From Hericium rajendrae (lineage: Eukaryota > Basidiomycota > Agaricomycetes > Russulales > Hericiaceae): a stretch of 64,000 bases of DNA. Below the pieces are notes generated by a model. The model saw nothing but the letters and a program-made list of their open reading frames with translations, was not told the DNA's origin and did no database searches. Shown here piece after piece: positions 2,236 through 54,260 of this stretch (within the stretch, counting starts at the first letter, position 1; every line of letters begins with the position of its first letter). A program made the translations under genes and the position numbers. The stretch covers positions 910,501 to 974,500 of the forward strand of contig CM065879.1 in assembly GCA_033439255.1 (NCBI GenBank), written 5' to 3'.

Positions 2236-2445
2236 GTTGGCATAGCTTCTATAGCTATATTATACTATGATAGCTATGACAGCTATAATAGCTTATACTC
2301 TATACTATGATAGCTATGTAGCTGATGCTTTATGCTATGGCAGCTATGACAAGCTATGATAGCTTTGCATAGATTACTTGACTGCTATGAGACTGCTATG
2401 TATAAAAGAGGACAGCTATGGACCTAGGAAAGCTATATAGCTTAC
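2236..2445. repeat. AT-rich tract with AGCTAT repeats
   Basis: From about 1810 to 2460 the sequence turns strongly AT-rich, unlike the rest of the window. Within 2236-2445 the words AGCTATG and TAGCTATGA recur more than ten times in imperfect tandem. The tract abuts the broken end of the gypsy pol gene near 2470. It could be a simple-sequence expansion or the remains of an inserted element. No coding potential is seen. Confidence 0.7.
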
Positions 2446-9524: not shown

Positions 9525-10955
9525 AGGCAAGGCAGTGGCAAGGCTGGTTGGTTCTCACTCACATCTACCACCGCTGGCGGCGCCAGCATTGTATGCGGGC
9601 ATTCCACGAGAATCACTTCTCTGGTTCAAGCTTTACAGTATATGCCACTCAAGAGCTGCTTATGTGTCTGTGGACTTGAACTTGGATCCAAATCATCGAG
9701 GTCGAAAGGTCACCAAGCGTCAGATGCGTTCCTTCCAACGGCTCGTGAACAACCTGCAGCGCGTCGACGAACTGGCCATCGCGGGTTACCTGACAACGGC
9801 CGTGGAACCAGCGCCGCATCTCCATGCTATACGGCTACATGCTAAACAGGACCATCAGATGAGCCACAGCGCCGCCATGTGGCCGAACTTCAAACTCCCG
9901 CTCAACCTCTTCCAAGGAGCACTTCCCAATCTCCGTCGTCTGGTCCTCTTACCATCCCTGCTCTCGAAAGGCTGTCCCTGTGGACAGAGAATGTGACGAA
10001 ATTGGGGCTCACTAGAGGTCGCCACAGTTCTTACTCTCGCAGCGGCCCCCTTATCTCATTTGTCCATGCTCTGCATCGCATGTCTCGTCTAGAACTTCCT
10101 TCAGTTGTCAATATCTTCACAAAGTCTTCGGATCACGTGGAACCCGTCCCCCTCAGCGAATACAACGCTACGGAGCCAATGGATCTGCCTGGGCTAGCAG
10201 CGTCGTTTTGCAACCACTGGAGTCTCCTGAGAAAGCTGCGCTTCTACACGCCCTCCGTCCGTCTTCCTGCCGGTGTGGGCAGCTGTAGGATGATGAGGCT
10301 CAGCAGACGCTTTCCTTCATATGTCATCTCTCGCCCTAATGATCTACCACCATTCCGCGCGTTCAAGCTCAACAGCTCGGCGATACCTCCTAGCCTCACC
10401 CTCGCCGGCTGGCGCACGCTTCCGGTGAACAACTGCTCGCTTCAGTCCTGTCACGGCGCAGCATTTTCGGCAACGTTCCGCCTGCAGTCCCAACAGGATT
10501 GCGTGGCCAGGATGCAAACGCTTTGTTCTGAACTCCCGCTGCATGCAGTCGAACTGTTATCCATTGGCTGCCAGTCCTCCGTTTCAGGCGCTGATGCCTA
10601 CGACATTACGGGCGACTACGCTCGTCTGCTCGCTTGCTTTCCCGCGGTCACCCGCATCGAACTCGATGCTAGATGCGACTATATCGACGTCCAGTGCGTG
10701 CTCGCTGCGCTGCTGGGAACGACCACGGACGCCTCCGGCCACACACAGCCGATCTGCCCTGAGCTGCACGAGCTGCATCTCGATGATGGTCCCACGCCAA
10801 CATCCGACAAAGTACATTCCAGGAGCACTTGTTCCGTTGGTCTCCTTTCCAAATTCGCCCATAAGCGTCTTCTGCACGATCACCGCTTGAAGGTTGCGGA
10901 GATCATGGACTCGGAGAGAGGTCTCAACTGCACGTTCAAGTCTAAGTCTGTTTGA
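9525..10955 (+). pseudogene. F-box protein pseudogene (paralogue of the 54-56 kb gene)
   Basis: The two frames 9535-9996 and 9879-10955 are homologous along their length to the intact F-box protein encoded at 54.3-56.0 kb. Shared blocks include VSVDLNLDPNHRG (LSVDLKLDPSHRG in the intact copy), VTKRQ, VEPAPHLHA and NLFQGALPNLRRLVL. The F-box itself is missing: homology begins only at the GWLVLTH region, immediately after the right arm of the inverted-repeat element. A short deletion removes part of the RRWRSIVTETPALYA segment, and a frameshift near 9950-9996 splits the leucine-rich part. The 3' end near 10940 lacks the conserved C-terminal SKLAEVVVLGRRIRCGT in clean form. It is not expected to encode a working adaptor. 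Confidence 0.8.
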
Positions 10956-11183
10956 GAAGGACAGGTGACTCGGTCGGTTTTCTGCGTATGGAGACGTACA
11001 CACGACGATATACCGTATAATACCCAGCGCCAACGGCGACAGCAAGAAAGAGATAGTGTAATGTACAAACGTCTCCGAGAGGGGGATATGTAACGGGACT
11101 GGGTGGAAACTTGTAGAGCTGTAACTGCACATTCGGAAAGACGTCTCGTCCAGCAATTGTTCAGCCATACCTAACACCATTCC

Positions 11184-14100
11184 CTACTGGACGGCCCGAG
11201 CGCCGAGCAAGCCTGCCATTTCCCAGAATTGCACGGATTTCAAGATGACCTCCGGATCCAAGGTCTCCATCCCGGCGAGGGTGTGCGCAGTTTTCGCCGC
11301 CTGCGTCGTATCGAGACGCACACGCTCCCCTAAATCGCCTCTCTGGAAAAACGGCAACAAGTTCAGTGCGCCGACATCTACACGATCATCTGCCTTGTCG
11401 GTATCTGCGGTATTGGCCAAGGCCTGTAGCCTGGAGAGCCATTCAGAGTACGGGACCATAGGCACTCCGAGTTTCTGAGCGACAGGCCTCAGCAGCGTGC
11501 TCCATGGAACAGGGTGAGGGGATACAAGGTGGAGGACAGGTTCGTACGTCCCAGTGGCGATCTCGACAAGAGCCAAGGCTGCGATATCCACCGGAACCCA
11601 TGAAACGGCCTTGATGATCAGATGAGATAAGACGAGGAAGTTTAGCCAGCTGTTATCATTTTGCGTATTGGCCACTTACCTCGTCCCTCTCAGGGAGGCT
11701 GTGAATGAGCTGACTACCCGCAACTAGTGCAGGAACCCACTCCTTGACTCCCCATCCGCCGATCCGTGTGTCACCGCAGAGCTGTCCGACGCGAACAGTG
11801 GTAGTCCGGAGGCCCGTTCCCTGCGTCGCGAGCATCAGGAGTTGTTCTGCCACCCATTTGCTCTCTCCATATCCGCCTCCTACGGACATCGTAGGGTCCA
11901 CGATAGGTAATTCAGCGACCGGATTCTTCGAAGGGTGATCTTTGGATGGGGAAAATAAATATCAGAGACCGGTAGCATAGTTTAAAGTCTAATATCGAAG
12001 ACGTACTCTGAAGTACGGCGATCGAACTGTTGAAAATCAAGCGGGCTCCCCCAGGGTGATCACAGGTCAAGCCAAGATCGATCAGCTTGCGAATGCCGAT
12101 GATCAAAGGCTCGAAGGATGACAGAGCCATGTTGAAGTCGACCTTCCAGGCTACAAACAACATCAACCGCAATTCATAGGAACATAACGTCAACATACCA
12201 TTATGAATGATTGTTGTGAGCGAGCGTTGGATCTGCAGAGTTCTTAGGATGTTGTCCAGGATGATAGAATCTTAGGGCAGAACATACCTGCTCGTATGCA
12301 TCTTGTTGAATCCCAAGCATGTCCTTGGACAGATCAGACACGAGCAGAGTCAACTTTTCTGATGACAGAAGGTCGACATGCAATCCCCAAGTTTCGAACG
12401 CATCGCGCTGTCGTTTCTGGAGACCGGCCAATGTTCTCGATGGGTCTCTGTTCAGCGCGAAGACTTTTTTGACGTTGGGGTTATCCAGCAATGCTGCAAG
12501 CAGGTGAGAGCCCAAGCGGCCAGTAGTTCCCGTCAACAGGATGGTCTCTCCGACGTCGCGCAGATGGTCGCTCGCGGCGCGCTGAGGTCCAAAAGCACTA
12601 AAGTTCCCGCTGTACTTCTGGACGAAGCGTTGCATCTCTTGGATCTTGCTCTCAAGCGACGTATCCTCAAAAGTCGAACCTGGCTCCTTCGAGAACAGGC
12701 CGCTCACGAAGTTGGCGAGCGCCCGGATCGAGGGATTGGAATACACAAAGGTGGACGGGATGCCGTGGATGGAAACAATGGACGCGCTTCGTAATGCATG
12801 CAGGATCGTGTTGCGGATCCAGGTAGCCTGGAGACTGATTACAGTGTGAGGGATCTCAATATGAATTCAAAACAAGGAACACTAACCTGTCGCAGCCTTG
12901 CTGAAACAAGTCGTCGTTGTCCTGCACAGGAGTCTTCATCACTCGCTTGACTATAAGGCGTACGAAGGACAGAATAGTTGTGGGCGTCCAAGAGTCGGGA
13001 ATGTTCAGCTCAGTCTGTGAGGAGTCTTTGACAGCGGCATAGACGGCATCGATCTCGTCGCTATACGCATTTATGCAGACTTGGCGCCTTGGCGTGCCCT
13101 TGGGAGTGTATTCAAAAGGCTTCGAGGGATTGGTGACGATGATCATCTGGTGAACGAAGTTCGTCAGGCATATCACAGGAAAAGAAGCATCGCCTTACCT
13201 CCTTGAAAAGTCTTGAATGAGAAGGTGCATATTCGTTCACTTTCTCAACAGTCGGCCTGTTCAGAGGGATCAGAAAGACAAGGCAGCATGATAAAGAGCA
13301 TTTTACCTACGATATCTTGTTTCTGAACTCAGCAAGCTTCGACAAGTCCGTCGGCTCAAAGGCTTCTTTCGGCTGGATGATGACACCGTTCTGGAAACGC
13401 CCACGCCCAAACATGAGTGCCGCCGCGATATGAGGATCCTGTAACAGTATGGCCTCTAGTAAGCCGGGCCGGTTAGTACATGCTGAGATCACGTCGAGCA
13501 TACAGTCCTTACCCAGAGGAACGGGATTCGTCTGGAGTTGAGCAAGTGATCAATAGGCAAAGGTAACAACGAAACAAAGTAGCACACCTTCTCGCCCGTC
13601 AACAGCATGAGCTGGTCATCAGCACGGCCGTAGACCCTCCAATAGTCGTTTTTAGTGGGATGACGCTGTATAAGATCACTCGTTCGGTAGGCGGGGATCC
13701 CGTTGATCTGCGTGTTGATGACGTGCGGAGTATATGGCAAATTTGTCTGCGCATGCGGTCAGAATCGCGTCCAGACATCCAGTCATGACGCACAAGCACG
13801 ACAGGCTCAAATATGTCTGTATAGCCATCCTGAGATTCGAGTTCGATCCGTAGATGCGGGGAGAGCTTGAAATATTCCCATTCTTCCTCGTCGGCAGGAT
13901 CTGGGATAAACTTTGAGAAGCAACCAACCTCGGTACTGTCATAATCTGAGTACGAGGGGTATCGGAAGTCTAAACAAGGGCGTACGAGGCGAAGAAAGGA
14001 GCGAGTTTCACACCAGCCTCCCACAGCTCATCTCCGATTTTCTTGTTCAAAGGCGCACCGCCGAACACCTGTCAACATCATGTGTCAGCATGCTTGAGCA

Positions 14101-15414
14101 TGGAGGGTTATCACATGTACGCACAATGGCTTGCATACTTTGCAGGATGGGCATGTTTGATGGAGAGCGGGACCATGCCTGAGGACGAATAAAGGTGCAT
14201 ACCCAACAAGAAATCCACGAGAAATACCTCTATATACGCAGGGACACAGTAGATTATTGAGCTCCGTGTCGCTACGATTGCTTCCAAAAAGTTATCGGGA
14301 TTGGGGAAGACTGGCGGCGACGAAGGCTTAAAACATCCCATGATCATGCCGGTACAAGCCTGTAGCGAATGAATGAGTCCACAAGAAGCATATAGATCAA
14401 ATATTACTCGCAGTCCAGACAATACAGAGGGCGCCCAGACCATCTAACAGGCTTGAGAAGAGCATTCGGCGCATCAAGAGGTCAGAGCGACTCACGGAAT
14501 ATGGGCATTGTGTGCGCTGCCATGACTTTGTCACACAGATCGACGTCGCCATAATCTAGCAAATCATGGTATCAGGGAGTGTGAGAGATGAAAGGGATCG
14601 GACATACAGATGAACAAACCGCATTGTAGCCAGTTCGAGTGCGTGAGCTTGATTGGCTTCGGGAATGCGGTGGAGCCTACATTTGGCACCTTAGCGGATA
14701 AATCTTTACAAGGTTCCCAATGAGATCCTCACCGGAAGAATGTAAAACCAATGCCAATCTATTGCTATGCAGCTCCCCGATCGACACACCTTCATGATCA
14801 TTGCTCCCATTGTATAAATCTTCGAATTGAGGCATCGGGAGGAGCTGCACACTAATGCCCTCCTTGGCGAGAATACCGATGGCCTCTTGACTGAGACGTT
14901 GCATAGCCGGATCTGGGCTCACAAATAACTGCAACACCGCGGTCGCTCGAAGAAGATGCGCTACGCCGGCCGCTGAATTGCGCGTGGAGATGGGAAAAGG
15001 CGTAAAACCGAGGTGCATGATGCCCACCATTAAGGTGAAGTAGGTAATGGAGTCTGGGTAGCCACAGTCAGTCAATTTTATCGCGGACCCTTGGGTACGA
15101 TACGTACCTGCGGTAGCCAGGATACCGATGATAGGTGCATCTGTAATCCCGTCGAGCTCGTACTTCCCTTGCGCGCGTTGGTAATGACTGGACACAAGCT
15201 TTGCTGCCTTGCGCATTCCACGATAAGCCTCGGGATACAGTATGTACTGCGACTCCTGACGATCGTTCGGATATACAAACAATGGGTGCTCCGGGCTATG
15301 TCTGGAGTGATATCCGAATATTTCGGGGATGGTCAACGAGCCGTCTACGGGCGGGGCATGCCATGTTGAGCTTTTCGTGCCTTGGCGGGTCCTGAGGATC
15401 GATAGGTCGAGCAT
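11184..15414 (-). CDS. Adenylate-forming reductase (NRPS-like A-PCP-R), copy A
   Basis: My splice model has 19 exons summing to 3,243 nt (1,080 aa) with every junction in frame. Order: an AMP-binding domain (residues about 1-600; HSSG-STAFPKPI is the A3 loop), a phosphopantetheine carrier domain with DLFQQGCDSLQ (Ser is the arm site, about 620-700), and a thioester reductase domain with the NAD(P) motif GTTGRLG and the catalytic YGESK. Such enzymes activate an acid as AMP ester, load it on the carrier thiol and release it reductively as aldehyde or alcohol; some Lys2-like members act on aminoadipate. Substrate is unknown. Oddities: the A5 motif reads FASTE where copy B has YGSTE, a conserved Trp in NRIWPT is Ser here, and one intron (donor 14411) begins GC instead of GT. 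The start was chosen at MLDLS, shared with copy B. Confidence 0.88.
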
Positions 15415-17222
15415 CGTAAAACTAAAATTGAAAGAAAAGCGTGAGGCAAAGTGAGCATGGCGGAATAAGAGGATGAGGACCAGAAGAACCGTACTGTTAC
15501 TGCCTGGAGTTCAATTGAGAGATTTGCAGGGTGTAACGAAGGGCAGAAACTGCTGACTTGTGAAGTGAATGCATTGGCCATTTTATCGCTCGAAGCTTCT
15601 AGGATCAAAGACGTCTTCAGAGACCTGGAACCATACTTGTGACAGATGATCATGTCCGTGGTCCATCTTCGTATTGACTGCACATCGGAATGCGGAATCG
15701 TGACGATTAAAATCTGAGGTCTCGGGAGCGCGATATCCAGGAAAGGCCATAGGGGGCGAATCACCTTCAGAACTTGTGAGCGTCGCTTTGACATAATGAT
15801 ATTCCTGGTGCATGCATGTTGGGCGTCGCCAGGAAGGAAAGGAAACCTCCATAGAGATTATGAAAGGACTGCTGCACAATGCCGTCGAATGGTGAGAACA
15901 TATGGGTATGGAAGAATGATGTCAGTTCATGTCCACCATCATGGCTGTCGAAGCGTCGACGTCCCAAAGAGGCATGGGATTGAGTGAATCATACCTGTGC
16001 ATAGTATCCATCGAACACCGTATCCTGCAACGCGGTAGTCCATGCGCTGCTGTGTTACGTGTCTCCTTGAATATATGAAGCTTCCAAGAGATGACAGCCT
16101 CGTAAATTGATCGATAAACTGATCCTTGGAATCTTCTGTGAAGCTACTGTATACGGTGGCATTAACAAGTCAGTGCTTAACGGGCTCTTTCAGGGCAGTA
16201 CATAGTCGAACGTGCGCACCTCAAAATAAAAGAGCGGCCAATCAGCAACCCTCAGCGTCCACACCTATCATGGGATCCACCTATCGTAGCAATCCACGAC
16301 CCACAAAATAAGCTGCGAATAGAGGAAACTTTGATGGCCACGGAGATTATGAACGACAACTGTAAATACCCCCTTCGCCAGCGACAACGGTCGAGATTGC
16401 GCTATTTGTGAAAGCGAAAAAGGCTCACCGGGGTGCACTATTGGTAAGGCCTTAAGGCGTGGGCGCATATTTCAAAGTCGAACAGAAGATCCAACTTAGC
16501 CCAACCTGGCGTCAAAGGGCGGCGATGACACGTATGTAAGTACGCCTCATGCTAACCCTTGAATAATGAGTCAGATGCTGCCGTGAAGACGGAGCAGCCA
16601 CGGTAAGTCTGTGGAGTCTGCCAAACAGGCGGCCTCCTCGGGCTCCTGTCAGGTTCTTGACGCCCGAAAATAGCAATGTGGAGATCTTCCAGCACCATCT
16701 GCCTAGGCTGTCGAAAAGATGATGAGCCCGGAGGGAAAACATGATGTCGGCACACGGTGCTGAGTACTGAAAAATGGAGATGAATGACAGATGAGTCGTC
16801 TAAAAAAATGCAAACATCAAGTACTTACACGTAAGGATAACAAAGACAACCCGACAACCCGACAATATGGCAGCTGGAGGAGCCAGATCTGTTTTCAGAG
16901 ACCCGTCGCCAACGTCGTTCCTTGACGCTCCCTACGCTAAAAGTCAAAATCAAACTGGGGTCTGTGTCTGTCAACAAATTCATCATATGTATATGTTCGC
17001 TTCCAGAAAATATGAACGTTGCTATGAGCCAACGCTCAAGAAAATCAAGTTCGAACTCGAGCATACTTACTTGTCCAGCGGCCTTGTTGCCGCCGGCCCG
17101 GGTTATGCCGTCGGCGACCTTTAAAATCTCAACGACGTCCCGACTTGTACTTATTCCTATTCCTATTGACTTGCTGTATCATTCTTCTCCCGTGAATCTG
17201 AATAACTCTGTAAAATTTCACA
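15415..17222. promoter_or_regulatory. Divergent intergenic region (reductase A / M20 dipeptidase)
   Basis: This 1.8 kb gap lies between two genes transcribed away from each other and must contain both promoters. The corresponding gap in unit B is about 1.3 kb and much diverged. Several reading frames of 60-150 codons cross it, but none has a recognisable domain or a consistent exon structure. I identified no specific binding motif. Confidence 0.4.
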
Positions 17223-19172
17223 ATGCCAGCTCCTGCCGATTTCCTGAAGTTTGTCGACAGCAACGAGGAAGCCTTCATCCAGCGCCTCGCTAGTGCCGTC
17301 GAGATCCCCAGGTCGGTTTTCATCTGGTTTCCATGCGTCAAGCTTGCAAGCTTGACGATCGCCTTTGATTCACGTCTCTCGCAGCATCTCTGGCGATCCC
17401 GCCCACCGCGAGGATGTCTTCCGCATGGCGTCTTTCCTGGAGTCGCAGCTTCAGGCATACGGCGTCGAGACCAAATCAGTTCCCCTAGGAACGCACGAAC
17501 TGGATGGCCAGAAACTGCAGCTCCCTCCTGCAATCTTGGGCAGGATCGGGAACGATAAGAGCAAGAAAACAGTCCTGATCTACGGCCACTTCGACGTACA
17601 GCCGGTCTGTCCATTTGTTCCGTCGTAGTGGAGGAGCGCCAATTACTGATTGCGATCGAACGGATACAGGCCGAGCTGTCCGACGGATGGACGCACCCGC
17701 CATTCGAGCTCACGCGCGACGAGTCGACTGGGCGACTCTACGGCCGCGGCTCGTCGGACGACAAGGGCCCCATTCTCGGCTGGGTCAACGTGCTGCAGGC
17801 CCACCACGATCTCAAAATCCCCCTGCCCGTCAACCTGCGCTTCTGCTTCGAGGGCATGGAAGAGAGCGGCAGCGAGGGCCTGGACGAGTTCATCCTTGCA
17901 GAAGTGAAGAAAGGCAAGGACGGATGGTTCGAAGGCGTCGACTGTGTTTGCATCGTGCGTCTTTATTCTACCGTCGTCTGGCATCTTGCTGAGTCGTGCA
18001 CAGTCGGATAACTACTGGCTGAACACGCGCACGCCGTGCCTCACGTACGGTCTCCGCGGACTGACCTATCTCAAGATCACAATCTCTGGTCCTGGGAAGG
18101 ACCTCCACTCTGGCGTCTTCGGCCGCATGGTACACGAGCCCATGACGGACCTCATCGCGCTCATGAGCAAGCTGGTCGACTCATCGGGCAAGATCCTGAT
18201 TCCAGGCATCGACGAGATGGTTCAGGAGGCGTCTGAAGAGGAAAGGTGAAGTGTTTACCTATCCAAATCTAGATTTCAGCTGCTAATCCTCTCCCATGGG
18301 GTGACAGGCAAATCTACGAGAAGCTGGATTACTCCATCAAAGACGTCGAGGAGTCCGCCGGCGGATCGATCGCGCTGAGCGACGACAAGGCAACCGTGCT
18401 CATGGGCCGCATGCGCTCGCCCTCGCTCTCCCTGCACGGCATCGAGGGCGCGTTCTACGGCGCCGGCGCCAAGACCGTGATCCCCGCGAAGGTCTCCGGG
18501 AAGTTCAGCATCCGGTCAGCGCGCATGTCGTTGCACATCCGCGTTGCCTGACGAGTGTCTGACAGGCTTGTGCCCCCGCAAACGCCGGAGAACGTCAACC
18601 CACTCGTGATATCGTACATCGAATCCGAGTTCAAGAAGCTCGGGAGCAAGAACACGCTCGTCATTGAGGATCTCCATGGTGGCAAGCCGTGGGTCGAGGA
18701 CTACAATCATTGGAGCTACGCGGCGGCCTGGAGGGCGACTGAGGTGCGCCATTTACTTGATACGGTTGCAACGAATGCGATCGCTTACATCCCTATCGCA
18801 GCAAATCTATAAGCAGACGCCCGACCTCACGCGCGAGGGCGGTTCCATCCCCGTCACATTGACCTTTGCCGAGGCATTAGGCGTCAATGTGCTGCTCCTG
18901 CCCATGGGCAGGGGCGATGACGGTGCTCAGTGAGTACTTTTCCTCATATAGTGTCGCACATCATCTCTGCTTGCATGTCACATCATATCTGTTGGCTAAC
19001 TTCTGTCTTACAGCTCCACAAACGAGAAGCTGGACAAATCCAACTACATCGAGGGTGTACGTTCTCGCTCTCCATTGTATCTCATATTCTGAAAGCTCAT
19101 GATAAATCTTTCCAGGTCAAGCTCCTCGGCACATACCTGTACGAGGTTGCAGAGGGGACGAAGGGGCAGTAG
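17223..19172 (+). CDS. M20 metallopeptidase, Cys-Gly/carnosine dipeptidase type
   Basis: Nine exons (17223-17311, 17385-17604, 17670-17954, 18004-18245, 18308-18514, 18566-18743, 18802-18929, 19014-19056, 19116-19172) give 1,449 nt, 482 aa, the usual length for the CNDP2/DUG1 family. The metal-site motifs are intact: YGHFDVQP (His ligand and Asp), [10 protein letters not shown] (bridging Asp), [10 protein letters not shown] (general-base Glu and ligand Glu), and GRGDDGAHSTNE near the C-terminus (His ligand). The dimerisation domain starts near [19 protein letters not shown]. Members hydrolyse Cys-Gly and other dipeptides in the cytosol, for example in glutathione turnover. It is divergent from reductase A. 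A decayed duplicate lies at 26.0-27.6 kb. Confidence 0.93.
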
Positions 19173-20024
19173 GCGCCGCCATAGCACTGCCGCCGGGTAC
19201 TCGTACGAGTGGGAAGCGAGGCTTGTAAGGTAAAGAAACACAATGTATCATCTGAACTGCTGTATAGGTATCCATGGAATTGCACAGGTATTGCTAATGT
19301 GACATTGTAGCATCGCAACCTTGATCGATGTTGTCTGCATCTATCCGAACCCTCTGTCCTTTCTTAAGAGCTACATTGCGGAACGTATGGTAATCCAGGG
19401 CCTTAAGACCTTAAGACCAGAATTGCAGCCATCGAGTCGCTGTGAGATAGGTACTTTGTGCTTGATAAGTTGGGGTTCATACTGCAGGATCATTGGTCAG
19501 GCCGGACGATTTGAAGATCGGGACCTTCTCCCGCTGTTTTCAATCATGAACTCGGCGGGATGCTGATTGCGGGAGCTGAGTCTGCTGGACGAACACCGGC
19601 GTTCAGATGAAGTCATCGTCGAAGCTCTGCGGCAACAGATGTGAAGAATATACAACCAATGCTCTCTGTTTGTAACGGTGCCAGTATACAGTACCATGTC
19701 GACCCGGATTTACTCACGACTCGATGCTTGAAACAGCGCTCACGGAATGAATACACGCGTCCATCCACAACGCCGGGTTTTCAAAGGTGCTTTTGGCCAT
19801 ATGCGGACCTATCTCTCCAATACGATGAAGACTTCGTCCTCAAAGGCGGGACTGCTTGAGTACTGCACAGCAATTCGGTCTGGTTTTCTTGGACGGCCAG
19901 TGCCTTTAGCTATTTAAGAAGTTGTGATATCTCGGTCGATTTCTCCTCCGGACGATCCAGCACAGGCTATATGAGCGGATGAAGTGGACGCTATCGATTG
20001 TACGGAAAACCGTCGCTTCACAAC
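19173..20024. other. Intergenic, duplicated DNA without a gene
   Basis: The 3' flank of the dipeptidase gene contains only short frames. Part of it is alignable with unit B: CATGAACTCGG-type wording near 19546 recurs near 28045, and the stretch leading to the membrane-protein start recurs upstream of 28785. I see no independent gene. Confidence 0.5.
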
Positions 20025-20252
20025 ATGCTGCTCGTCATAGCTGAACTCCTTGCGTTATTTCTGAAGAGCGTGCTCTACGGCCAGCACTCTGGAATTTGGT
20101 CTTCTATGCGCTATCCTATGCTGATTATTCTTGCATGCAGGCATATTTTTTCTACTTTATTGGGCACTGCTCGTGGCGTTGGTGCGCCAAGGAGATGAGG
20201 CTCGACTCCGGCAGCGTATTCTGCTACCAATCGCAAAGCTCATGCTGAACGC
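20025..20252 (+). pseudogene. 5' fragment of the seven-helix membrane protein gene (unit A)
   Basis: The first coding segment, ATG at 20025 then LLVIAELLALFLKSVLYG, matches exon 1 of the intact gene at 28785 (LLVKAELLALFLESVLYG). A second block (about 20140-20250) matches its exon 2 (IFLLLYFALLVALLYQGGEARVRQR against a near-identical reading here). The splice donor after exon 1 is destroyed: GGTGAGG in copy B is GGCCAGC here. Homology ends near 20252, inside exon 2. The rest of the gene is absent, because the next 180 bases lead straight into the 3' end of reductase B. This marks the breakpoint of the tandem duplication. Confidence 0.8.
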
Positions 20253-20429
20253 TACAGCATGAGATGCCGCTTGTCAGAGACAGCCAGACATGCCAATCAT
20301 CGAGAAACCTTCTTATACCAAGCTAAACAAGGTGGGAAAGACTACATAGGAGGACAGGGCCGAGGCATATAACTACACATTCGGAGACGTGTTCAACAAT
20401 CGTTCAATCAAACTTGCGGGGCAGAAGAA

Positions 20430-23400
20430 TTATATACCGCTATCGGCCGCGGGAAGGCTGGGCGCGCTGAGCAAGCCGTAGGTTGCCCAGAACTGCACAG
20501 ATTTCAGCACGAGCTCCGCACCCAATGGCTGCATCGTGGCGAGGGTGCGCGCAGTCTTCGCAGCCTGCGTCGTGTCCAGATGCACGCGCTCCCCGAAATC
20601 AGCGCTCTGGAAGAACGGCAAAAGGTTGAGTGCGCCAACATCATCCACGTCGTCTGCTTTGTCGGTATGCCTGGTGTTCGCCAAGGCCTGCAGCCCAGAG
20701 AGCCACTCAGAGTATGGAACCATGGGTACTCCGAGTTTTCGGGCGACAGGCCTGAACAGCGTACTCCAAGAGACGAGATGAGGAGACACAAGGTGAAAGA
20801 CTGGTCCATATGTCCCGGTGGCCATTTCGACAAGAGCGGTGGCCGCAGTATCCACTGGCACCCATGAGATGGCCTTTTTCAAAGACAAGATTTAGCCAGA
20901 TTTCATGTATCCGAGTATTGGCCGCCTACCTCGTTTCGCTCAGGGAGGCTACCTATCAGCTGACCTCCCGCAATCAGCGCAGGGACCCACTCCTTAATGT
21001 TCCATCCTCCGATCCGAGTGTCGCCGCTGAGCTGCCCGACACGGACAATGGTGGTCCGTAGGCCCGTTTCCTTCGCTGCGAGCGTGAGGATTTGCTCTGC
21101 TACCCATTTGCTCTCTCCATATCCACCTCCTACAGATGACTCGGGATCCATGAGAGGTACCTCGGCGATCGAGTTCTCCGAAGGGTGATCTGTCGACGGG
21201 GAAAGGAGAGACGTAAGAGAGGTTGAAAGCAAGGTTAACAGTCAAACCTTGGATGCTCACTTTGAAGTACGGCGATCGAACTAATGAAAATCAATCTGGG
21301 TCCTCCAGGGTGATCACAAAGCAACGCGAGATCAACTAATTTCCGAACACCGACAATCAAAGGCTCGAAGGATGATAATGTCATATTGAAGTCGACCTTC
21401 CAGGCTGTCAAAAATATTGTCAACCAAAATCCGCAGGAAGATGAAGTCCGAGTAGTAGACACACCATTGTGAATGATCATCGTAACGGAGCGTTGGATCT
21501 ATTGGGTGTTAAGCATTTCCTTGAAGAAGACACGTCTAGAAACATACCTGCTCGTAGACGTCTTCTCGCAGTCCGAGCATCTCCTTCGACAGATCAGACA
21601 TTAAGAGTGTCAACTTCTCCGATGCCAAGAGGCCGACGTCCAATCCCCAAGTCTCGAACGCATCGCGCTGTCGTTTCTTAAGAGAGGACAGCGAATGTGA
21701 CGGGTCTCTGTTCAATGCGAAGACACTCTTGACGTCAGGGCTGCATAACAAGCCAGCGAGAAGATGAGAGCCAAAGCGGCCGGTAGTACCCGTCAACAAG
21801 ACTGTCTCGCTAATGTTGCTCGCATGGTCCTGTGTATTATGCTGAGGGAGAGCGCCAAAGTTCTTGCTGTACTTCTGCACAAAGTGTTGCATCTCTTCGA
21901 CCTTGCTCTCAAGGGATGATACCTCGGAAGTCGAATATACCGTCTTTGAGAACAGGCTGCTCACGAAATTGCCGAGCGCCCGGATCGACGGATTGGAGTA
22001 CACGAAGGTGGACGGGATGTCATGGACCGAGATGGTGGATGCGACTCGCAAGGCATGAAGGATCGTGTTACGGATCCAAGTCGCCTGTAAGCTAACCATA
22101 ATGTGAGCGATCTCGGTATAAATTCAAAGCAGCAAGGACAGTTACCTGTCGCAGCCTTGTTGGAACAAATCGTCGTCGTCCTGTATGGAAAGCTTCATAA
22201 CCCGCTCTACTGTGATGCGTATGAAGGTCAGAATTGCTGCGGGTGTCCAGGATTCAGGCGGGTTTAGCTCGGTCTGTGAGGAGTGCTTGACGGCCGCATA
22301 GACAGCATCGATCTCATCGTTATACGCATTTATGCAGACTTGGCGTCTCGGTGTGCCCTTGGGTGTGTATTCGAAAGGCTTAGAAGGACTGGTGAAGATA
22401 ATCATCTTGTAATGAAGAACATCAGAGCTGTGCGAGGAGGGATGTATAACAGATAATAGCCTTACTTCCTTGAAGATTCTGGAATGAGAAGGCGCGTATT
22501 TATTGACTTTTTCAATGGTCGGCCTGACCAAAGGCATCAGAAAAGCAGAACATCATGATGGAGCACCCGTTGCATACCATATCCTGTTTCTGAACTCCAC
22601 GAGCTTGGATATATCGTTTGGCTCGAAGGCTTCTTTCGGCTGAATGATGACACCGTTCTGGAATCGCCCACGCCCGAACATTAGTGCCGCAGCAACGTGA
22701 GGATCCTGCACTAGTATAGCTTCTAGATAGCCGAACCATATCAGTACGGCGGAGATAAACCCGAATATACAGTACTAACCCAATGGAACGGGGTTCGTCT
22801 AGGAGAGAAAGAGTAGTCAGGAGGCAGAAATGAATAAAAAATCAAAGTAGTAGACCTTCTCGCCGGTCAACAATATCAGTTGGTCATCCGCACGACCGTA
22901 GACCCTCCAATAGTCGTCCCTGGTGGGATGGCGTTGTATAAGATCGCTTGTTCGGTACGCAGGAATCCCGTTAATTTTCGTATTGATAACATTGGGCGCG
23001 TACGGTGGAGATATCTGAAAGACGATCAGTCATCAATATCAAAGTCGCAATCAGGCATAGGGGCATGACGCACGAGCACAACAGGCTCGAAGATGTCAGG
23101 TGTACCATCCTGAGGAACCAGCTCGAGCCGTAGATGCGGGGACAGTCTGAAGTACTCCCACTCCTCCTCGTCGGCCGGATTCGGGATGAACCTTCCAAAG
23201 GAGCCAACCTCGGTACTATAACGCTATTACTACGAGGGGTGTAAAAAGTCTGAATGAAGACGTACGAGCCATAAAAAGGAGTCAGCCTGACACCAGCCTT
23301 CCACAGTTCATCTCCGATCTTCTTGTTCATGGGAGCGCCGCCGAATACCTGTCAGTGACATTATGCATCAGCATGCCTCAACACGCAGGATGGCCACATG

Positions 23401-24711
23401 GACGGACGATTGCCTGCATACTTTGCAGGATGGGTAGATTAGATGGAGAGCGCGACCACGCCTGTAAATGATTGAGGAATTGTACCGGGAAAGTGTCTTC
23501 AAAGATACCTCAACATGTGCGGGGACGGAATAGACTATCGAGCTTCGTGTCGCAACGATCGCTTCCAAGAAGTTGTCGGGATTAGGGAAGACCGGGGGCG
23601 ACGAAGGCTTGAAACAACCCATGATCGTGCCGGAGCAAGCCTGAAATCAAAGCGTCCGTGAGTCCTACGGCAAATACATGAAACAATTGGCGCTCACCGT
23701 CCACGTCATGAATGCGGCACCCATAGCATCTAGCATGCTTCAGAAAATATAATCAACGTGCTAGAGCTCGAGGCCACTCACGGAACAGAGGCAATGAATG
23801 TGCCGCCATGACCTTGTCACACAAGTCGACATTGCCATAGTCTAGCGGATCGCAGTGGAATCAGAAGGTATGAGGGACGCGAAGGAAACCAAACGTACAG
23901 ACAAACATGCCCCATTGCAGGAAGCTCGAGTGTGTGATCTTGATGGGCTTCGGAAACGCAGTGGAGCCTAGGGTTGAACCATCTTAGCAGCACATCCTAT
24001 ACTATGTCTCTCATGAGAAAATGCTCACCTGAAGAATGCAAAATCAGTGCCGTCTTGTCGTTGCTCAGCTTGCCGAGCGAAACCCCCTCATGTTCATTGC
24101 TTTCATTGTAGAAATCTTCGAACTGAGGTATCTGAATAAGCTCCACAGCAATGCCCTCCTTGGCGAGGATACCGGTGGCCTCTTGACTGAGGCGCTGCAT
24201 AGCAGGATCCGGGCTCACAAACAGCTGCAAGACCCCAGTCGTTCGAACAAGATGAGCTACACCAACGGCGGAGTTGCGCGTGGAGATGGGGAAGGGTGTG
24301 AATCCGAGATGCATGATCCCCATCATCAAGGTAAAATACGTGATAGAGCCTGATAGCTCGCAGTTAGCGAATTTTCGCCAAGGACCCTCAGAATGCGATC
24401 TTACCCAGGGTAGCCAATATACCAATGGTAGGCGCATCTTCACCCCCGCCGAGCTCGTACTCCACTTTCAGGCGCTGGTAATGGGCCGATACGAGTTTTG
24501 CTGCCTTGCGTATGCCACGGTAAGCCTCAGGGTACAGTATGTACCGTGGATCCTGGCGATCGTTGGGATACACAAACAGCGGGTGCTTCGGGCTGTGTCT
24601 AGAGTGATATTCGAATATTTCCGGCAGAGTCAACGAGCCATCTAGCGGCGGAGTATGCCATGTTGAACTCTTCGTGCCTTGCAGAGTCGGAAGATGGGAT
24701 AGATCGAGCAT
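20430..24711 (-). CDS. Adenylate-forming reductase (NRPS-like A-PCP-R), copy B
   Basis: This paralogue of copy A has the same exon-intron layout and domain order: AMP-binding, carrier, reductase. Recognisable motifs are HSSG-STAFPKPIK (A3), PFYGSTEVG (A5, canonical here), YRTSDLIQRHP and YGRADDQ (A7/A8 region), DLFQQGCDSLQ (carrier Ser), GTTGRFG (NADPH) and YGESKWVAE (reductase catalytic Tyr/Lys). The chemistry expected is ATP-dependent activation of a carboxylic acid and NADPH reduction to aldehyde. The C-terminus is a few residues longer than in copy A. Every junction I tested stays in frame, and intron positions equal those of copy A; the one exon that ends at a GC donor in copy A has a normal GT here. 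The start chosen is the ATG aligned with copy A; an in-frame ATG lies one codon upstream. Confidence 0.88.
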
Positions 24712-26029
24712 CATACAGCTATAAGCGAAAAAAATGCAGGCGAAGTGAGTACGACAAGACGATAGACTAAGGACTAGGATAATCTCACTATCCAAGATTA
24801 AAGCCCGAAGCTCGTAGGATGTGTCGAAGAAATAAGACTTTGTCCGGGTTACAGTGAGAGTGTGTTATCCATTTATACAGTTGAAGGAATCCAGGATCAG
24901 ACTTGCTGTCGCGAGATAGAAACCTGGATCCATGCCTTCACACACAATATCGCGACGGAAGGATGCCTGTGACAAATGTTCGTGCTTGTCACCCGTCATT
25001 CTGGATCATAGTCAGAACGACGAATCAGAATATCAACCATGAATGGAGGCCTTAGAAGCAGAGCATCTATGAAGTGTGACCACGTTTACACCCTGACCAT
25101 TCTCACAGCATCTCGGCGCTGATTTGACGGCGCGGAGCTTATGCTTCGCGAATCGCCAGAATAAGGTTCGAGCGCAGCAATCAACAGGCGTTCGGCTGAT
25201 GCAGATGCTGGGAACGGGGTTGCGGTCGTAATAAGCAAGAGGGCTCCGAGCTGCGTCAGTACACTGTTACGAATATGCTTGAACTAGCCCTGGGAAGGAT
25301 CAGAGGCAAGAGCGCCGAAAAAAGGTCGTTGGCTCCCCATCTGTGTCGCCGCGGCATTATGGAAGATTCTGAAGATGGAACACACACGGATAGGTCAATA
25401 TGTGTACAAATGTCATGCACAGGAGAAGCTCAAGGCGCAGAGAGGAATGCTCCATTATGACCTATAAGGATGGGTGTGTACAAGGCTCCGAGCATATCAG
25501 ATTAAGTCTTACTCACCTCGAGGTGTATGGCTAGTAGATCAACAACCCCGCAGAAATGGGCTCCATGATCGTGGCCGCAAATTAGCGCTTAGCGACATAA
25601 CCCGTATAATTCACAACTCACTATCCTCTTCATCAGCAGCATGGTGCATGACAGCTTGGCATCGTAGATAAAACTTGCCATCCCCGTGCTAGACTCGTAC
25701 CCAGTCCAGCACGTAAACTCCCTCATTTATGAGATCACGTGGAACCGGCTGGGAACGAGCCTATCCCCGTGCTACAGGCCACGTATGATCCAATGCCAGT
25801 GGCCGGGCCAGCTCAAGCCCAGTGGTCATCGATTTCGTAGAACGAACAGCTGTGACCGTATGCCGTGCTGCGCGACAGCAACTCGGAGTAGGCCTTACTA
25901 GTTCATCCAGCACTTCGCGAATGCCGTCGACCTAAGTTCCCAGTTTACTCTTCATTCGGTCGCCAATTCTTACAAGCCAACGTTTCCGCAGTGAAGGGTC
26001 GATGATCCACAATTGATTCACGTTTCTCA
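24712..26029. other. Intergenic region, unit B (promoter of reductase B)
   Basis: This corresponds to the divergent promoter gap of unit A but is shorter and poorly conserved. The first exon of the M20 gene could not be found here. No other gene is recognised; short frames such as 25275-25460 carry no motif. Confidence 0.45.
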
Positions 26030-27560
26030 CAGCATCTCCGGCGATGGCGTGCACCGAGAAGAAATCATTTGTATGGCATTGGAATCCTAGCTCCAGGCAT
26101 ATGGCGTAGAGACCAAATCAAACCAGCTCTCCTCGGAACTCATTTGTTTTCCGGCAAGGAGCTTCAGCTGCCTCCTGCAATTTCAGGTAGGACTGGAAAT
26201 GACACGAACAAGAAGATAATTCTTACAAGTGGTCGCTTCGATGTACAGCCGGTCTGTTGCTTTCTTTCTATTGAAATCAGGCACGGTGTGTTGATCACGG
26301 TGTAACGCACAGGCCGAGATGTCTGACGAATGCACCGGCCATTCAAGCTCCTTCACGATTAATCGATCGGGCGACTCTCTGGCCGCGGCTCGTCAGACAG
26401 CAAGGCATCTGTGCTTGGCTACGTCAATGCGCTGCAAGTCCACCACAGTTCATCATCGCAGAAGTGATGAATTTTGAGGATGAACGGTTCGATCGCTTTG
26501 ACTGTGTATCCATCCTGCGACTGTCCACCTTCATCCAACCTTTCGTCAAGGACATGCAATGCAGTCGAATAATTACCGGCTGAACACATGCACCCTCGCC
26601 TCATGTACAGTCTCCCTGGGCCGACATATCTTGGACTTACGGTTTCTGGACGTGGGAAAGGTCTTCATTTTGATGTCTACGGTCAAATGGTACATGAACC
26701 CATGACGGACCTAGTCGGAGCAAACTGGTCGACCTATCCTATAAGATTTTGATCTTAGGTGTCAACGGCGATAAGGCAAGTGTACGCATGGGTCGGGCAT
26801 CGAAGATTCCTTCGGCGGCACCGGCGTGCAGACCCTGGGAAGTTCAGTGGAAGTTCAGTGGAAGTTCAGTATCCGGTAAGTGCCGCACCGCACAAGCGGA
26901 TCACTTTTGGTTGACGAGTATCTGATTCAGGCTTGTACCCCTTCAAACACCCGAGAACATCGAGCCACTGGTGATATCCTGTAGTGTCCCGTGTCGAAAC
27001 GGAAATCAAGAAGCGCGGGGGCAAGAACAAGCTCGTGACTGAAGATCTCGATGGCGGAAGCCGTGGATGGAGAATTATGCACTGGACTTCTGCGACCTGA
27101 GAGGTGCTACACTCGTTTCACACAGCTATCTGCATGTGTGGAAGCTTGAACGTCCTTACTGCGGCATATCTACAAGCAGACGCCCGTTCCAACGAAGTAT
27201 CTCATTCCTGCCATATTGAGGCTCCAGGCGTCAATATGTTCCTCCTTCCTCATGTCATGAGTAGGGGTGATGGCGGGGCGCTTTTATCCACGACCCACTG
27301 GTCACCACCTCTACGTCTACATGCCACCTCGTGTCGATTAAAATACTTGTGGTGCGCAGCTCGGTGGACAAGAAGCCACATAAGTCCGTTCATGCTGAAG
27401 GTGCACGTTAGTATTCATTCCTCTGTTTCATGACGTATGATAATAGCAGGCGACCATGAATGCTTCTGGGCGAAACTTCTCCGCACGCATCTCCGCACAT
27501 CTTTCCGCAAGCATCTCTCCGCCCGCATCTGTACAAGGTTGCAGAAGCAAGGCCGCGCGC
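26030..27560 (+). pseudogene. Degraded copy of the M20 dipeptidase
   Basis: Stretches alignable with the intact gene appear in order: the exon-2 start (CTCACAGCATCTCCGGCGAT near 26030), the VETKS and LQLPPAI region (about 26100-26190), the GRGSSD region (about 26370), the [10 protein letters not shown] region (about 26630), the PENxxPLVIS region (about 26950) and the VNVLLLP region (about 27230). The metal-binding His block reads GRFDVQP rather than GHFDVQP, so a key His is lost. Multiple stops, indels and a triplicated GGAAGTTCAGT phrase near 26850 break the frame. Exon 1 is not detectable. Confidence 0.85.
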
Positions 27561-28784
27561 TAGCTGCGTGGGACGCATGCGAAAGGAATGCATCGAAACG
27601 TACGTATCTCAGCTGCTTCACAAGTATGAAGTTCCCGTGTCGGATTCCGTTTCCAGAATACTGTCTCCGGCCTGATCATCAGACTTATCAACCCTTCATC
27701 GCCCATGCTTCGGAACACTTGATGTCCTGGACCTTGGCACGAGGGTTGCAGAGGCATCTTCACTGTATAACCGGTGATCGGCTACAGATTTCACCAAATG
27801 CTTGCGGAAGATTTCGAAGCGGGGTATGCGCTGGGTCCCGATCGGACTCAATCGAGGGCGCCGCAATCCTGGCACACGTGGAGCCTAACATAAGATATTT
27901 ACTTCTGCGCATTCCAATGTTGCCTGTCGTCATCTGCTCAGTACTAATGATATTTGGTTTGTTGTAGATGGTTGCGACATTGGGGCTGGCGTGGAGTTGT
28001 ATCCGCGTCAAGCAGATACAAGTGGAGCATCCAGGATGTACTACCACAGTTCATGATCCAGAACTCGGAGGGACGCTGAGCGTTGATGCAGTGATCCTGT
28101 GCGTGGGCTCATTGTCTAAATAAAATTGTCGGCACCGATCAGCCCGGTTTGCACTCACGATATTCACGCTTACACCATCTCATCAAGGACTTTCTTCAAA
28201 AAATTGGATCGAAGATTCACGACCATTTTGTGAGTGCATCTGATCTTCATATTGAATCCTAGCTCTATCAAGTCCCCACGATTCAGAAATCAGGACTTCA
28301 GTCTCGACTGGTGACCTGTCGAACCAAGCGGATGTCTTGTCAATGAGGACTTAAAGAATCGTCTTTTTTCGACTAGAAAAACTGTCGGCAGTGTAGTCGG
28401 AGCCTCAACACCAAGATGAAGCATAGATTCTCACTCCATTTTCCAAGTCCCACCGTTATCACTCGAAGCTGCGAAATGCGACACATGGTGACTTCGGCTG
28501 CTTTTTCGTAAGTTACATCTTGGTTGTTTTGGCGACTTGCAGAGCTCGACTTCGTATTGGATAACGAGACCGACTGCGGGACGCAGCATCTGACCGTCGC
28601 GATTTCGGCGTGGTTGCGTCAGATGGTCGCAGGCACCTGCCCTGTGCAGAGTTCTGATATTCTGTTCGGGAAACACATCGTTCCTACAGACCCTGCATGC
28701 GGCTCTGAACGCTTCAGCACATGCTATATAATCAAATGAGCGCTATGATTCGATGGACGTACGAAGACCAGTAACCCGATAGCC
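27561..28784. other. Intergenic, no gene recognised
   Basis: The frame 27437-27967 overlaps the end of the dipeptidase pseudogene and has no domain. The region from about 28030 to 28780 has patches similar to 19540-20020 of unit A. Nothing here supports an independent gene. Confidence 0.45.
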
Positions 28785-30122
28785 ATGGGCATTCTGCTTG
28801 TCAAAGCTGAACTTCTGGCGCTATTTTTGGAGAGCGTGCTATATGGTGAGGATGATACTCCGCATATATGGTGAGGATCGTAACGCACTGATCATCTATA
28901 TATGAATCCAGGCATCTTTCTATTGCTGTATTTCGCTCTGCTGGTGGCATTGCTGTACCAAGGAGGCGAAGCTCGAGTCCGCCAGCGTACTTTGCTGCCA
29001 GTGGCAAGCTTGATGCTTGTGCTGGCGACTGCCGTAAGTTGCGTCGATTTGCGTCAGTCGCTCAAATAAAAACTTACGGGACATCTCTTGGTCTAACTTA
29101 CTAGCATGTCATCATTGGCTTCATCCGATGTTACGCGGGCTTCACTTCTTATGTGGATCCTTTGTCGTATTTTGAGAATATCGCGCATCCGCTTTTCGTT
29201 GCAAAGAATGTCATCTATGCCACTCAAACCCTGATTGGTGACGGTGTCTTGGTGCGTATCGGCCATCATGCCTCTCAATCAACGTCTTAATTTCATCTTA
29301 GATCTGGAGGTGCTACATGGTATACGGGAAAAGGCTATATGTCATTGCCGTCCCGGCCGTGGTACAGCTGGCCAACGCATGCAAGTCCTTCGCAGAAATC
29401 CTACTGCACATAACCTGAATCCGCCGTCCGTACAGGTGTCGGATACGTTGTCTGCTGGGAATTTTCACAGGCGAACAAAGGATCCACAGTGTTTGCTAGC
29501 GCATCCCGCTGGATCACGACATTCTTCGCGTTGACTATGTGCATCAACGTTTCTTGCACCAGTACGTGCTTTCGCCGTTCTTCCTGTCGCAAGCGATGAC
29601 CGCTGGCCATGTACGATTAGTTGCTATGTGCTGGCGGATTTACAGAATCGGACATTTCACGGAAGGAACCGCAAATTTGATGCCCGTTGTCACGTCAATT
29701 GTCGAGAGTGGCACTTTATACAGCGCCGGAGTCCTGGGCCTTCTCATATCTTACCTGAAGAAATCGAACGGCCAATACGCAGCAATAGACGTGGTCCCTC
29801 CCCTTGTGGTAAGCTGCCGAGCTGTATGCTGCACGCCTAGCATTGATCCGAATATTTAACATCGTAGGGCATCACGTTTACGTTGATCTCCCTACAGATT
29901 CACTTCAGGCTGGACCCAACCAGATTCCTGTCCTCTGCGGGATCACATATCCATTTTCGCCGTACGGCTCGCAGCGGCCCCGGGAGAAACAATGCCGTTT
30001 TGCCGATGGACACCTTCTCGGTACACATCCGTCAAGAGACTGAAGTCTACTCCTCAACCTTTCCCAGTAGCGAAGACAGCTCGAAAGCGAAAGGCCAGCA
30101 CGGGCTATCTGCACCGATATGA
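28785..30122 (+). CDS. Multi-pass membrane protein, basidiomycete seven-helix type
   Basis: Seven exons (28785-28845, 28912-29033, 29105-29251, 29302-29380, 29436-29561, 29621-29808, 29868-30122) sum to 978 nt, 325 aa, all in frame. Hydrophobic helices alternate with short loops: an N-terminal LLALFLESVLYG segment, IFLLLYFALLVALLY, TLLPVASLMLVLATAHVII, then helices near VIWRCYMVY, VPAVVQLANACVGYVVCW, WITTFFALTMCINVSC, and two more before a charged Ser-rich tail. The layout resembles the large family of basidiomycete integral membrane proteins of unknown function; exact family not certain. Intron 4 uses a GC donor (AT-GCAAGT). The gene lies at the right edge of the duplicated unit, and a 5' fragment is present in unit A. 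Confidence 0.82.
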
Positions 30123-30715: not shown

Positions 30716-32844
30716 TCAGAAGTCGCCGAGGTCGATGTCGATCGACTCCAGAACTTGCGACTCGAAATCGGTCTTGGGCTTCGTCTTCTGCGGGCTGCCG
30801 TTCGCACGCGGCGTGGGCGAGAGAGAGCCGGGCGTGCCCAGCTGCGGCGTCTTGCCGTTCACTGCTGGCGTCGCTGGCGTGCTCGGTCTAAAACGTCGCC
30901 GGCGAGAACAAGGGAGAAATAACCGGTCGGCATCATACTTCAAGTCAAGCAAAGAAGGAAAACACAAACCTGGATGCAAACATCCGCGGCACGGTCTTCA
31001 GCCGCGCACTGGCATCGGAGGGCACAGGCGTGCCCGCATGGCTCGCGGCCAGCTTTCGCTCGCGCCGCTTGCGCTCCGCCTCGAGCAGCTCGCGCTCGCG
31101 CACCGCCTCGAGATTCGCCCTGCGGTTCCGCTCATTGACCTTCGCGAGCAAGTCGTTGCGGTCCTCGCTCGCGCGCGGCGTCGCGGGGCCCATGAGCACA
31201 GTGATCTCCTCGATCTGCTTGTCGAGCGTCGCCACTTCGACGAAGTCGTTGCGGCGGAGCGCGAGCGTGCGCTGTTGGTGCAGCCGCGACTTCTCCAGGC
31301 TGCGGGAAGAGGAGAACTGGCCGCCCGCCATTTGGGCTTTGCGAGCGAGGATGGCGGTCACGTCGCTCTGTTGGGGATGTCAGCAACACGAAACGTTTTC
31401 AGGAGATGGGGACGAACGTCAGTGAGAGGCTTGCTTGCTAGTTGCTGCAATTGTTCGGCCTTCCTCTGTATCTGGCGCTTTGATGGAGGTTTGATATGGT
31501 CCGCCTCGAGTACTGTCATGAGGCGATCAAACTCGCGCTACGGGGATTTCAGGACTGGATGTACACGAGAGGTTGGGTTCGCAGACTAACCTGTGTATAT
31601 GGTGAGTTGGACACTTTATCCATAGGCCATGCTTTGACAGATTTTCCGTGCTTCAGCTCGACCTCTTGGTTGGTGAAGTGACCGTTGATCTTATACGGCT
31701 TCACGAGATCCACGGCGAGGTCTTGAAGAGGTTATTATGGGCTGTATGCACACATAGAAACCTGGACGTACTCTGGATCTCACAGATACGATAGATGGGC
31801 TGGCCACTTTCTCTATCCTGACCAATCAGGTAGCGCACCCATGCACCTAGCGTGGCATATGAGATTATGGTGATCCATCAATCCGAGGGCCTTACCTTTG
31901 ACGTAGTCCTCAAACCATGGTGACAAGCAGTGCTTGGCGAGTTTATCTCTCGTCAATGAGGCATGCCAGAGGTCTTCCATCGTAATCTTCTCCTCATCCG
32001 GGTGGGTCTTACCAAGCAGTTTGAGCTCCTTCTCTTCCTCTTGTTCGTACTTGCTAATCTGGCCATCTTCCTCGTTTTCAGAGTCGGTCTCCATATCCAT
32101 AGGCGATGAAGAACGATCACGCTTCGGAGATGTGCGGTTCTTAGAGCCTGTGAGTACCGTATGCGAGGGAGACATGCGCCACACGTACCCGCTTGTTATC
32201 GTCCTTCGCTCTTCTCTTCGCCTTGAGCTCATCAAGCTTCCGGTTCTTCTCCTTCGTCTCGCCACGCACGGCATGTTTCCCTGTATCCGGACTATTTATA
32301 TCCCGCCCAGACGACAGAACGATAGATGAAGAGCGTACGCTTGGCTGCCTTCGAGACACCGTCTGCTTCAGCTCCCCTCTCCTGCTGCTTAAGCATCTGG
32401 TCCAAGTTCCGCTTGTCCTGTATGCGCTGCATCTCCTCCAGCCGCTGTGCAAGGACCTCTTCACGCTCCATCTCAGTCATATCAAGTAGTCTGCAGCGCA
32501 TGTATATGCGTAAGCCAAGAGTAGAGGATGCATTGCGCGCCCAAGGATGCGTACCGGAGTCGGTCGGCCTCGTCGGTATACTTGCCCTCCAGCGGATATG
32601 GGTTCATGTTGTCGTCCTCCTCTTCGCTCTCGGGGGCGTCGCGGTCGCTTTCGCTGCTTGAATCGACGCTATAAGATGCACACATCAGTAAAGAGAAGAC
32701 AGACAAAGAGACGAAACAAGGAGCTCACCTTGCTTTGCGCCGTTTGGAGCCAGATCCCTTAGACTGACGTCTTTTGCGCTTCTTCTCGGTCGCCCCCGCG
32801 AGCTCGAGCAGCTCGTCGGAGAAGTCGCCTTCAGAATCAGACAT
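30716..32844 (-). CDS. RTF1: RNA polymerase-associated protein Rtf1 (Plus3 domain)
   Basis: Ten exons (32844-32729, 32668-32555, 32490-32339, 32280-32189, 32139-31896, 31846-31772, 31721-31591, 31537-31418, 31367-30970, 30887-30716) total 1,614 nt, 537 aa. The N-terminus is acidic then basic (SDSEGDFSDELLELAG, then KKRKRRQSKG), typical of Rtf1. The Plus3 domain spans about residues 208-335: it opens with ITMEDLWHASLTRDKLAKHC, continues through WVRYLIGQD, YRICEIQN and VDLVKPYKINGHFTNQEVEL, and ends near MTVLEADHI. A charged coiled-coil segment follows (RKRRERKLAASHAG). Rtf1 is a Paf1-complex subunit that binds Spt5 through Plus3 and promotes histone H2B ubiquitylation during elongation. Exon 5's acceptor is the least certain junction. 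It is head-to-tail with SOF1, about 200 bases apart. Confidence 0.93.
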
Positions 32845-33047
32845 TGTTGTGCAAGAAGAGGAAGGGAGGAGATGGGAGGAGGGAGAGTGATGAGTTGGTT
32901 GCTCGAAGATGTCTTGTCCTCTTACCACGCCCTGCACAGCCACCGGATCTGGCGGTCCGGCGCTTACAACTCAACAACATCTCGACAACATCTCGACATA
33001 TACATCTACGCGAGCAGCAAAAATACAGAACAGAGGACACAACCTGA

Positions 33048-53646: not shown

Positions 53647-54260
53647 AGTGGATCGCCGCGTCAGATGCGAGATGTAAGGGTTGCATAGGATCAGATGGAG
53701 CCATTGGGTCTTATTTTGTAGGCAATATTAAGAGATACAGCTCAGCAGGGATCCCGAAGCTTCAATGCTTCAGTAGACGGGTAGGTCGATGAGTGTGCTG
53801 AGGGCGCTTGAGGCTGGCGCCGCCGCCAATTGTCAGAGACCTCGTCGACCGATGGGTTTTGATCATCTCTGCAAGTCAAACTGGGTGAATAACTGAGCAG
53901 AGTGAATTTGAATCTTGAAACCAATACTGGAGCCTTGACGCAGTGAACGGTTCCAATAGCCATTGATGACAAGGAGACTTCGTCACAACGTGCCATCAAT
54001 ACAACTCCACCGCATGAACGTCGTGACGCTGCCACCGTCCACGTTCAAACAACTTCTTTCGACCTCATCCAACATCTCACACAGTTTTTCTCGACGAATG
54101 GAAGCCTTGATCTCTCGAGGAAACTGCAGGGAGGATGAGGTGGTCCGTCTATACAAACGATCCCCCCTAACCTAGCAACGGCTCAAATGCTTCCGTCTTT
54201 GACCTTTCGCCATTCAGATCAGCTCCTATCCTTGCATCCCGAGCTCCCTGACAATCCAGC

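Follow-up and report, generated by a model that had tools for sequence, protein, structure and literature searches.

The window analyzed here, a 64,000-nucleotide stretch (G000:C2:910501-974500) of the Hericium rajendrae NPCB A08 genome (46,767,965 bp in 19 contigs, among them the contigs C2, C3 and C10 named below), contains two adjoining units with the same gene order: an adenylate-forming reductase on the minus strand, followed on the plus strand by an M20 dipeptidase of the DUG1/CNDP type and a putative seven-transmembrane (seven-TM) protein (Table 1). The reductases of units A and B are referred to as RA and RB. Self-comparison of the window showed a 4.36-kb direct repeat with 75% DNA identity, and a sensitive self-comparison resolved four same-strand collinear blocks between the units; shuffles gave 0 hits in 20. 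The tandem duplication that an initial annotation had proposed from the letters, suggesting a dotplot as a check, was thus recovered as collinear homology. The limits assigned to it by that annotation, 11184 and 30122, coincide with the stop codons of the outermost gene models. The locus is a true, old tandem segmental duplication with adjoining copies, followed by ordinary differential loss.

Table 1. Features of the duplicated locus (positions in the window; blocks are given as unit A / unit B).
Feature	Position	Strand	Description
Duplicated unit A	11122..20277		Extent of recognizable homology; edges by local alignment and collinear blocks
Duplicated unit B	20370..29057		Extent of recognizable homology; edges by local alignment and collinear blocks
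Junction between units	20278..20369		92 bp
Block 1	11200-15495 / 20464-24789		74.1% identity over 4363 columns
Block 2	17255-18214 / 25873-26767		62% identity
Block 3	18438-19063 / 26796-27409		63% identity
Block 4	19946-20246 / 28703-29017		66% identity
Reductase A (RA), A-T-R adenylate-forming reductase	11184..15414	-	1083 aa, 19 exons, open; spliced model and Pfam
Reductase B (RB), A-T-R adenylate-forming reductase	20430..24714	-	1089 aa, 19 exons, open; spliced model and Pfam
Dipeptidase A, M20 DUG1/CNDP type	17223..19172	+	482 aa, 9 exons, open; spliced model and Pfam
Dipeptidase B remnant, M20 pseudogene	25697..27547	+	Guided alignment and blastn blocks 25873-26767, 26796-27409
Membrane gene A remnant	20025..20260	+	Exons 1-2 left, corresponding to residues 3-61 of membrane gene B
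Membrane gene B	28785..30122	+	325 aa, 7 exons, open; spliced model

The hand-spliced models of RA and RB have 18 intron positions in common, and a guided aligner with RB as the guide for RA returned 18 introns, 0 frameshifts and 0 stops. Intron 5 of RA is of the GC-AG type, and RB has GT at that site. In both proteins the AMP-binding domain (PF00501, 98-100 bits) and its C-terminal subdomain (PF23562, 130-136 bits) scored above the Pfam cut-off; the thioester reductase domain (PF07993), which includes the GxTGxxG-type and YxxxK motifs in RA and RB, reached 118 and 104 bits in the two copies. The carrier motif GCDSLQA is present in both, while the Pfam carrier model scored 19.8 bits in RB (cut-off 20.8) and was unlisted for RA. 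This A-T-R domain order is the one found in fungal carboxylic acid reductases and other adenylate-forming reductases of the nonribosomal peptide synthetase-like (NRPS-like) type; the activity predicted for RA and RB is the ATP- and NADPH-dependent reduction of a carboxylic acid to its aldehyde. A Trametes cinnabarina protein named ATP/NADPH-dependent carboxylic acid reductase and the carboxylic acid reductase of Boreostereum vibrans share 52% and 47% identity, respectively, with the Hericium reductase. Clade V of PMC9605436, to which the pair may belong, is described there as mainly basidiomycetes. RA and RB are 78.6% identical over 1078 residues. The nonsynonymous (dN) and synonymous (dS) divergences over 1078 codons were 0.126/0.952 (NG86), 0.130/0.865 (YN00) and 0.129/0.788 (maximum likelihood). 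The resulting dN/dS ratio, about 0.13-0.16 at a dS of about 0.8-0.95, is far below the expectation for a pair with one neutral copy and argues that both reductases are functional-looking genes retained under purifying selection. The initial annotation had raised possible selection for two reductases, and the synonymous and nonsynonymous comparison it called for agrees with this suggestion.

Table 2 of PMC10608310 places g3046, g3050 and g3052, all annotated as NRPS-like, in a single cluster (Chr2 860,561-963,214). Three reductases, at about 890, 922 and 931 kb, fall inside this cluster; by position, the two in the window are g3050 and g3052, and a third, apparently broken copy (L047, G000:C2:890033-895274) is g3046. 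The predicted three-gene NRPS-like cluster of this edible mushroom would then consist of two functional-looking genes and a third that is apparently broken. RA and RB come out as sisters (bootstrap 100) when 14 members of the family found in this genome are placed in one tree, and the copies nearest to them are C2:890k and C10:1400k. The pair also holds with support 1.0 in a tree of 130 sequences, made of 10 of the 14 genome members and 120 listed of 599 database matches. Two reductases belonging by position to the polyketide cluster of this genome, C3:2012k and C3:2043k, are just 36% and 32% identical to RB. Two H. alpestre proteins group with other copies of the family, P0019 with C10 at a tree distance of 0.18 and P0046 with C3:260k at 0.07. 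As the distance between RA and RB is larger (0.27), the duplication is probably older than the divergence of H. alpestre, assuming similar rates.

Dipeptidase A includes the catalytic (PF01546, 109 bits) and dimerization (PF07687, 37.5 bits) domains, and its best solved relatives are CNDP2 (4ruh, E 3.4e-165, and 2zof) and then DUG1 (4g1p, E 5.9e-153). DUG1 has a housekeeping role in the breakdown of glutathione. Compared with the cytosolic DUG1/CNDP2 dipeptidases, the unit A protein is full-length and unremarkable, whereas the unit B copy is a pseudogene with 7 frameshifts and 4 stops at standard settings (14 and 3 at looser settings), 49 guide residues missing and 51% identity over 428 positions. 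The sole other M20 relative found by searching the genome with dipeptidase A, C3:1223k, is 39% identical over 443 positions. Dipeptidase A is 93% identical to an H. alpestre protein. Hericium belongs to the Russulales, and the kinship with polypores or agarics assumed in the initial annotation was mistaken, the host being a tooth fungus of that order. Just upstream of dipeptidase A, a 143-bp stretch (window 16914-17055) is 84.6% identical to one at about 903.0 kb of C2 (L060 23-165). The space between the dipeptidase remnant and membrane gene B (window 27547-28785) is about 1.2 kb, its unit A equivalent is 0.85 kb, and the 177-amino acid open frame at 27434-27964 had no Pfam match.

The product of membrane gene B matched no Pfam family up to an E value of 1. 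Its predicted seven-TM fold is read from the model of a homologue, P0241 (52% identical), which has seven long helices plus one of 7 residues (mean pLDDT 67.3, pTM 0.65). Seven TM helices are also a feature of fungal class D GPCRs (Ste2), one of several seven-TM folds to which the protein might belong. One of the introns of membrane gene B is of the GC-AG type. The unit A remnant is 77.6% identical to the intact copy over 58 residues; both of its donor sites lack the GT of the intact copy, one reading GC and the other, by alignment, AT. The content of the two units is therefore as first annotated: an intact dipeptidase and a truncated membrane gene in unit A, a ruined dipeptidase and an intact membrane gene in unit B, each of these passengers surviving once and the reductase alone being kept in duplicate.

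We regard as the likely history of the locus an old tandem duplication of one block with the genes for an adenylate-forming carboxylic acid reductase, the DUG1-type dipeptidase and the seven-TM protein, after which passenger copies decayed and both reductases were retained. This explanation builds on the observed collinearity, open frames, divergence and sisterhood of the reductases, and every feature testable at the locus agrees with a tandem segmental duplication and a later loss of the redundant copies. Regarding the timing of the losses and the reasons for retention, we infer that the dipeptidase was carried along as a housekeeping gene and that its second copy, in unit B, was redundant and escaped constraint about halfway through its history, if not before. 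In unit A, the seven-TM copy would have been under constraint for most of its existence; its loss was probably later and may have come about through a deletion reaching from its intron 2 almost to reductase B. Both reductases may have been kept as members of a large secondary-metabolism family of H. rajendrae, and a divergence between them may be under way in the adenylation, or substrate-choosing, domain. The initial annotation called the pattern reciprocal degeneration. The complementary losses are real, but a single linked process behind them is not supported: two independent losses have an even chance of landing in opposite units, so the complementary pattern calls for no special cause. 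That two neighboring genes lost opposite copies is what sets this locus apart from a typical duplication with loss, and as evolution it follows the ordinary course of gene duplication.

The timing of the losses was estimated from the differences at codon positions 1, 2 and 3, which were 0.159/0.097/0.391 for the reductases (1078 codons), 0.361/0.290/0.506 for the dipeptidases (421 codons) and 0.207/0.121/0.448 for the membrane fragment (58 codons). Simulations were conditioned on the third-position divergence at three constraint levels. Since intron divergence was lower than dS, the dating was repeated with the neutral rate left free between 0.4 and 1.0. Neutrality of membrane A for its whole history gave P values of 0.007, 0.000 and 0.000 at the three levels, and the best fit was neutrality for 0-25% of it. 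Dipeptidase B, for which 210 hand-picked, well-aligned codons were used, fits about 50% neutral history; 0% and 25% were excluded, 75% was borderline (P 0.063, 0.043) and 100% gave a P value of 0.007. The membrane copy was thus probably lost later than the dipeptidase copy, though the date ranges touch. As to the neutral clock itself, an intron identity of 75.7% obtained by permissive alignment was rejected as inflated, since it fell to 73.6% when trimmed of splice signals and non-homologous introns aligned at equal gap costs gave 71.1%. Three stricter gap costs gave 63.4, 60.0 and 58.6% (non-homologous introns, 51.4, 44.8 and 38.3%), values that match simulations at about 0.5 substitutions per site.

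Several points weigh against this account. Neutrality of membrane A for half its history gave P values of 0.14, 0.073 and 0.030, so 50% is not firmly excluded, and with a fragment of only 58 codons the order of the two losses is uncertain. The hand-picked dipeptidase blocks bias the dating towards a late loss, and the neutral divergence of about 0.5 implied by the introns, below the synonymous 0.79-0.95, would shift the dipeptidase loss earlier. Over the whole protein, the excess of unique changes in RA was not significant (71 vs 53, chi2 2.61; 66 vs 49, chi2 2.51). The 120 listed of 599 matches include no RA or RB ortholog from any other species, not even H. alpestre, and the order of events is thus read from a single genome; loss, fragmented annotation or search length limits are possible reasons for the missing H. 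alpestre ortholog.

A reading compatible with this history, which we consider conceivable yet somewhat less probable than its opposite, is that the reductases are a neofunctionalized pair in which RA gained a new substrate, hence the retention of both copies. In relative rate comparisons, the adenylation domain of RA had more unique changes than that of RB with either C10 (37 vs 18, chi2 6.56) or C2:890k (32 vs 15, chi2 6.15) as the outgroup, and the counts were not significant in the other domains. Of 192 sites invariant in seven other paralogues, 6 are changed only in RA and 2 only in RB; at 126 sites at least 95% conserved in 120 homologues, the departures are 2 and 1. At the A5 motif, described as crucial to substrate recognition (PMC11643632), RA has Phe-Ala in place of Tyr-Gly, whose Gly 119 of 120 homologues retain. 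Differences between RA and RB are denser in three windows around substrate-pocket motifs (22/63 vs 70/379, nominal P 0.004, uncorrected), which were picked after the alignment was seen. This post hoc choice and the uncorrected P values count against the new substrate, as do the A3 motif window, with 1 difference in 14, and the finding of the A5 Phe in 11 and the Ala in 1 of the 120 homologues. Moreover, where conservation is at least 85% (242 sites), the numbers of departures are similar, 11 in RA and 8 in RB, and the catalytic motifs other than A5 are intact in both enzymes. The data suggest two working copies that may have drifted apart in their substrate-choosing domain.

Another proposal, which we put forward tentatively and think unlikely, is that the reductase and the orphan seven-TM protein are a functional pair in mushroom fungi that was duplicated and kept together here while an unrelated dipeptidase was discarded. 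The enzyme would make an aldehyde, and the receptor-like membrane protein would sense or handle it. In this genome, members of the two families are found close together more frequently than expected, and they carry consecutive gene tags in Agaricus bisporus. A membrane-family gene with 0 frameshifts and 0 stops lies beside the third reductase copy, and this locus (C2:890-895k), with its apparently broken reductase and intact membrane gene, is the mirror of unit A; no dipeptidase remnants were found there at E <1 in the 22 kb searched. A literature search of titles and abstract starts found no published description of this duplication or of a reductase/seven-TM pair, which does not establish its absence from print, and a word search of PMC11508549 returned no occurrence of NRPS-like and duplication terms. 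The locus points to a seven-TM family that may partner these reductases, a lead worth a survey.

It could also be argued that the unit A membrane gene was incomplete from the start, the duplication having had its right breakpoint within that gene, and that the dipeptidase alone degenerated. The remnant of membrane gene A ends at 20,277, 92 bp before the start of unit B at 20,370, where the duplication junction must fall. The junction stretch (20271-20372) was compared with the downstream portion of membrane gene B and with three other candidate sources, and no homology was detected (P 0.40-0.79 vs shuffles). Nonetheless, the remnant differs at 12, 7 and 26 of its first, second and third codon positions (58 codons), the pattern of a constrained gene, while about 38-40 differences at positions 1 and 2 are expected for a neutral fragment and 19 were observed (P at most 0.007); fixed neutral rates give a similar outcome. 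Provided that the fragment itself encodes nothing under constraint, as this test assumes, a truncation at birth is improbable, and membrane A was most likely lost after the duplication. Finally, although the sequenced strain is a dikaryon processed with purge_haplotigs (PMC10608310), two haplotypes laid end to end, the artefact that the initial annotation had named as fatal to its reading, are scarcely credible and can be set aside, as copies 75% identical in DNA with a dS of about 0.8-0.95 diverge far above the 3.61% heterozygosity (PMC10608310) and no near-identical second copy of either reductase was seen among the candidates scored in the genome search.

Other features were observed in the window around the tandem units. 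A second repeat occurs in two pieces, at 9639-10419 and 54701-55503 (78% and 80% identical); of its open frames, that at 54252-56045 has an F-box-like match and that at 9846-10952 is without a match. Retrotransposon pieces with gag, aspartyl protease, reverse transcriptase and RNase H matches lie on the minus strand at 2445-6047. To the right of the duplicated block, a Sof1-like WD-repeat match is found on the minus strand at 32840-33601.

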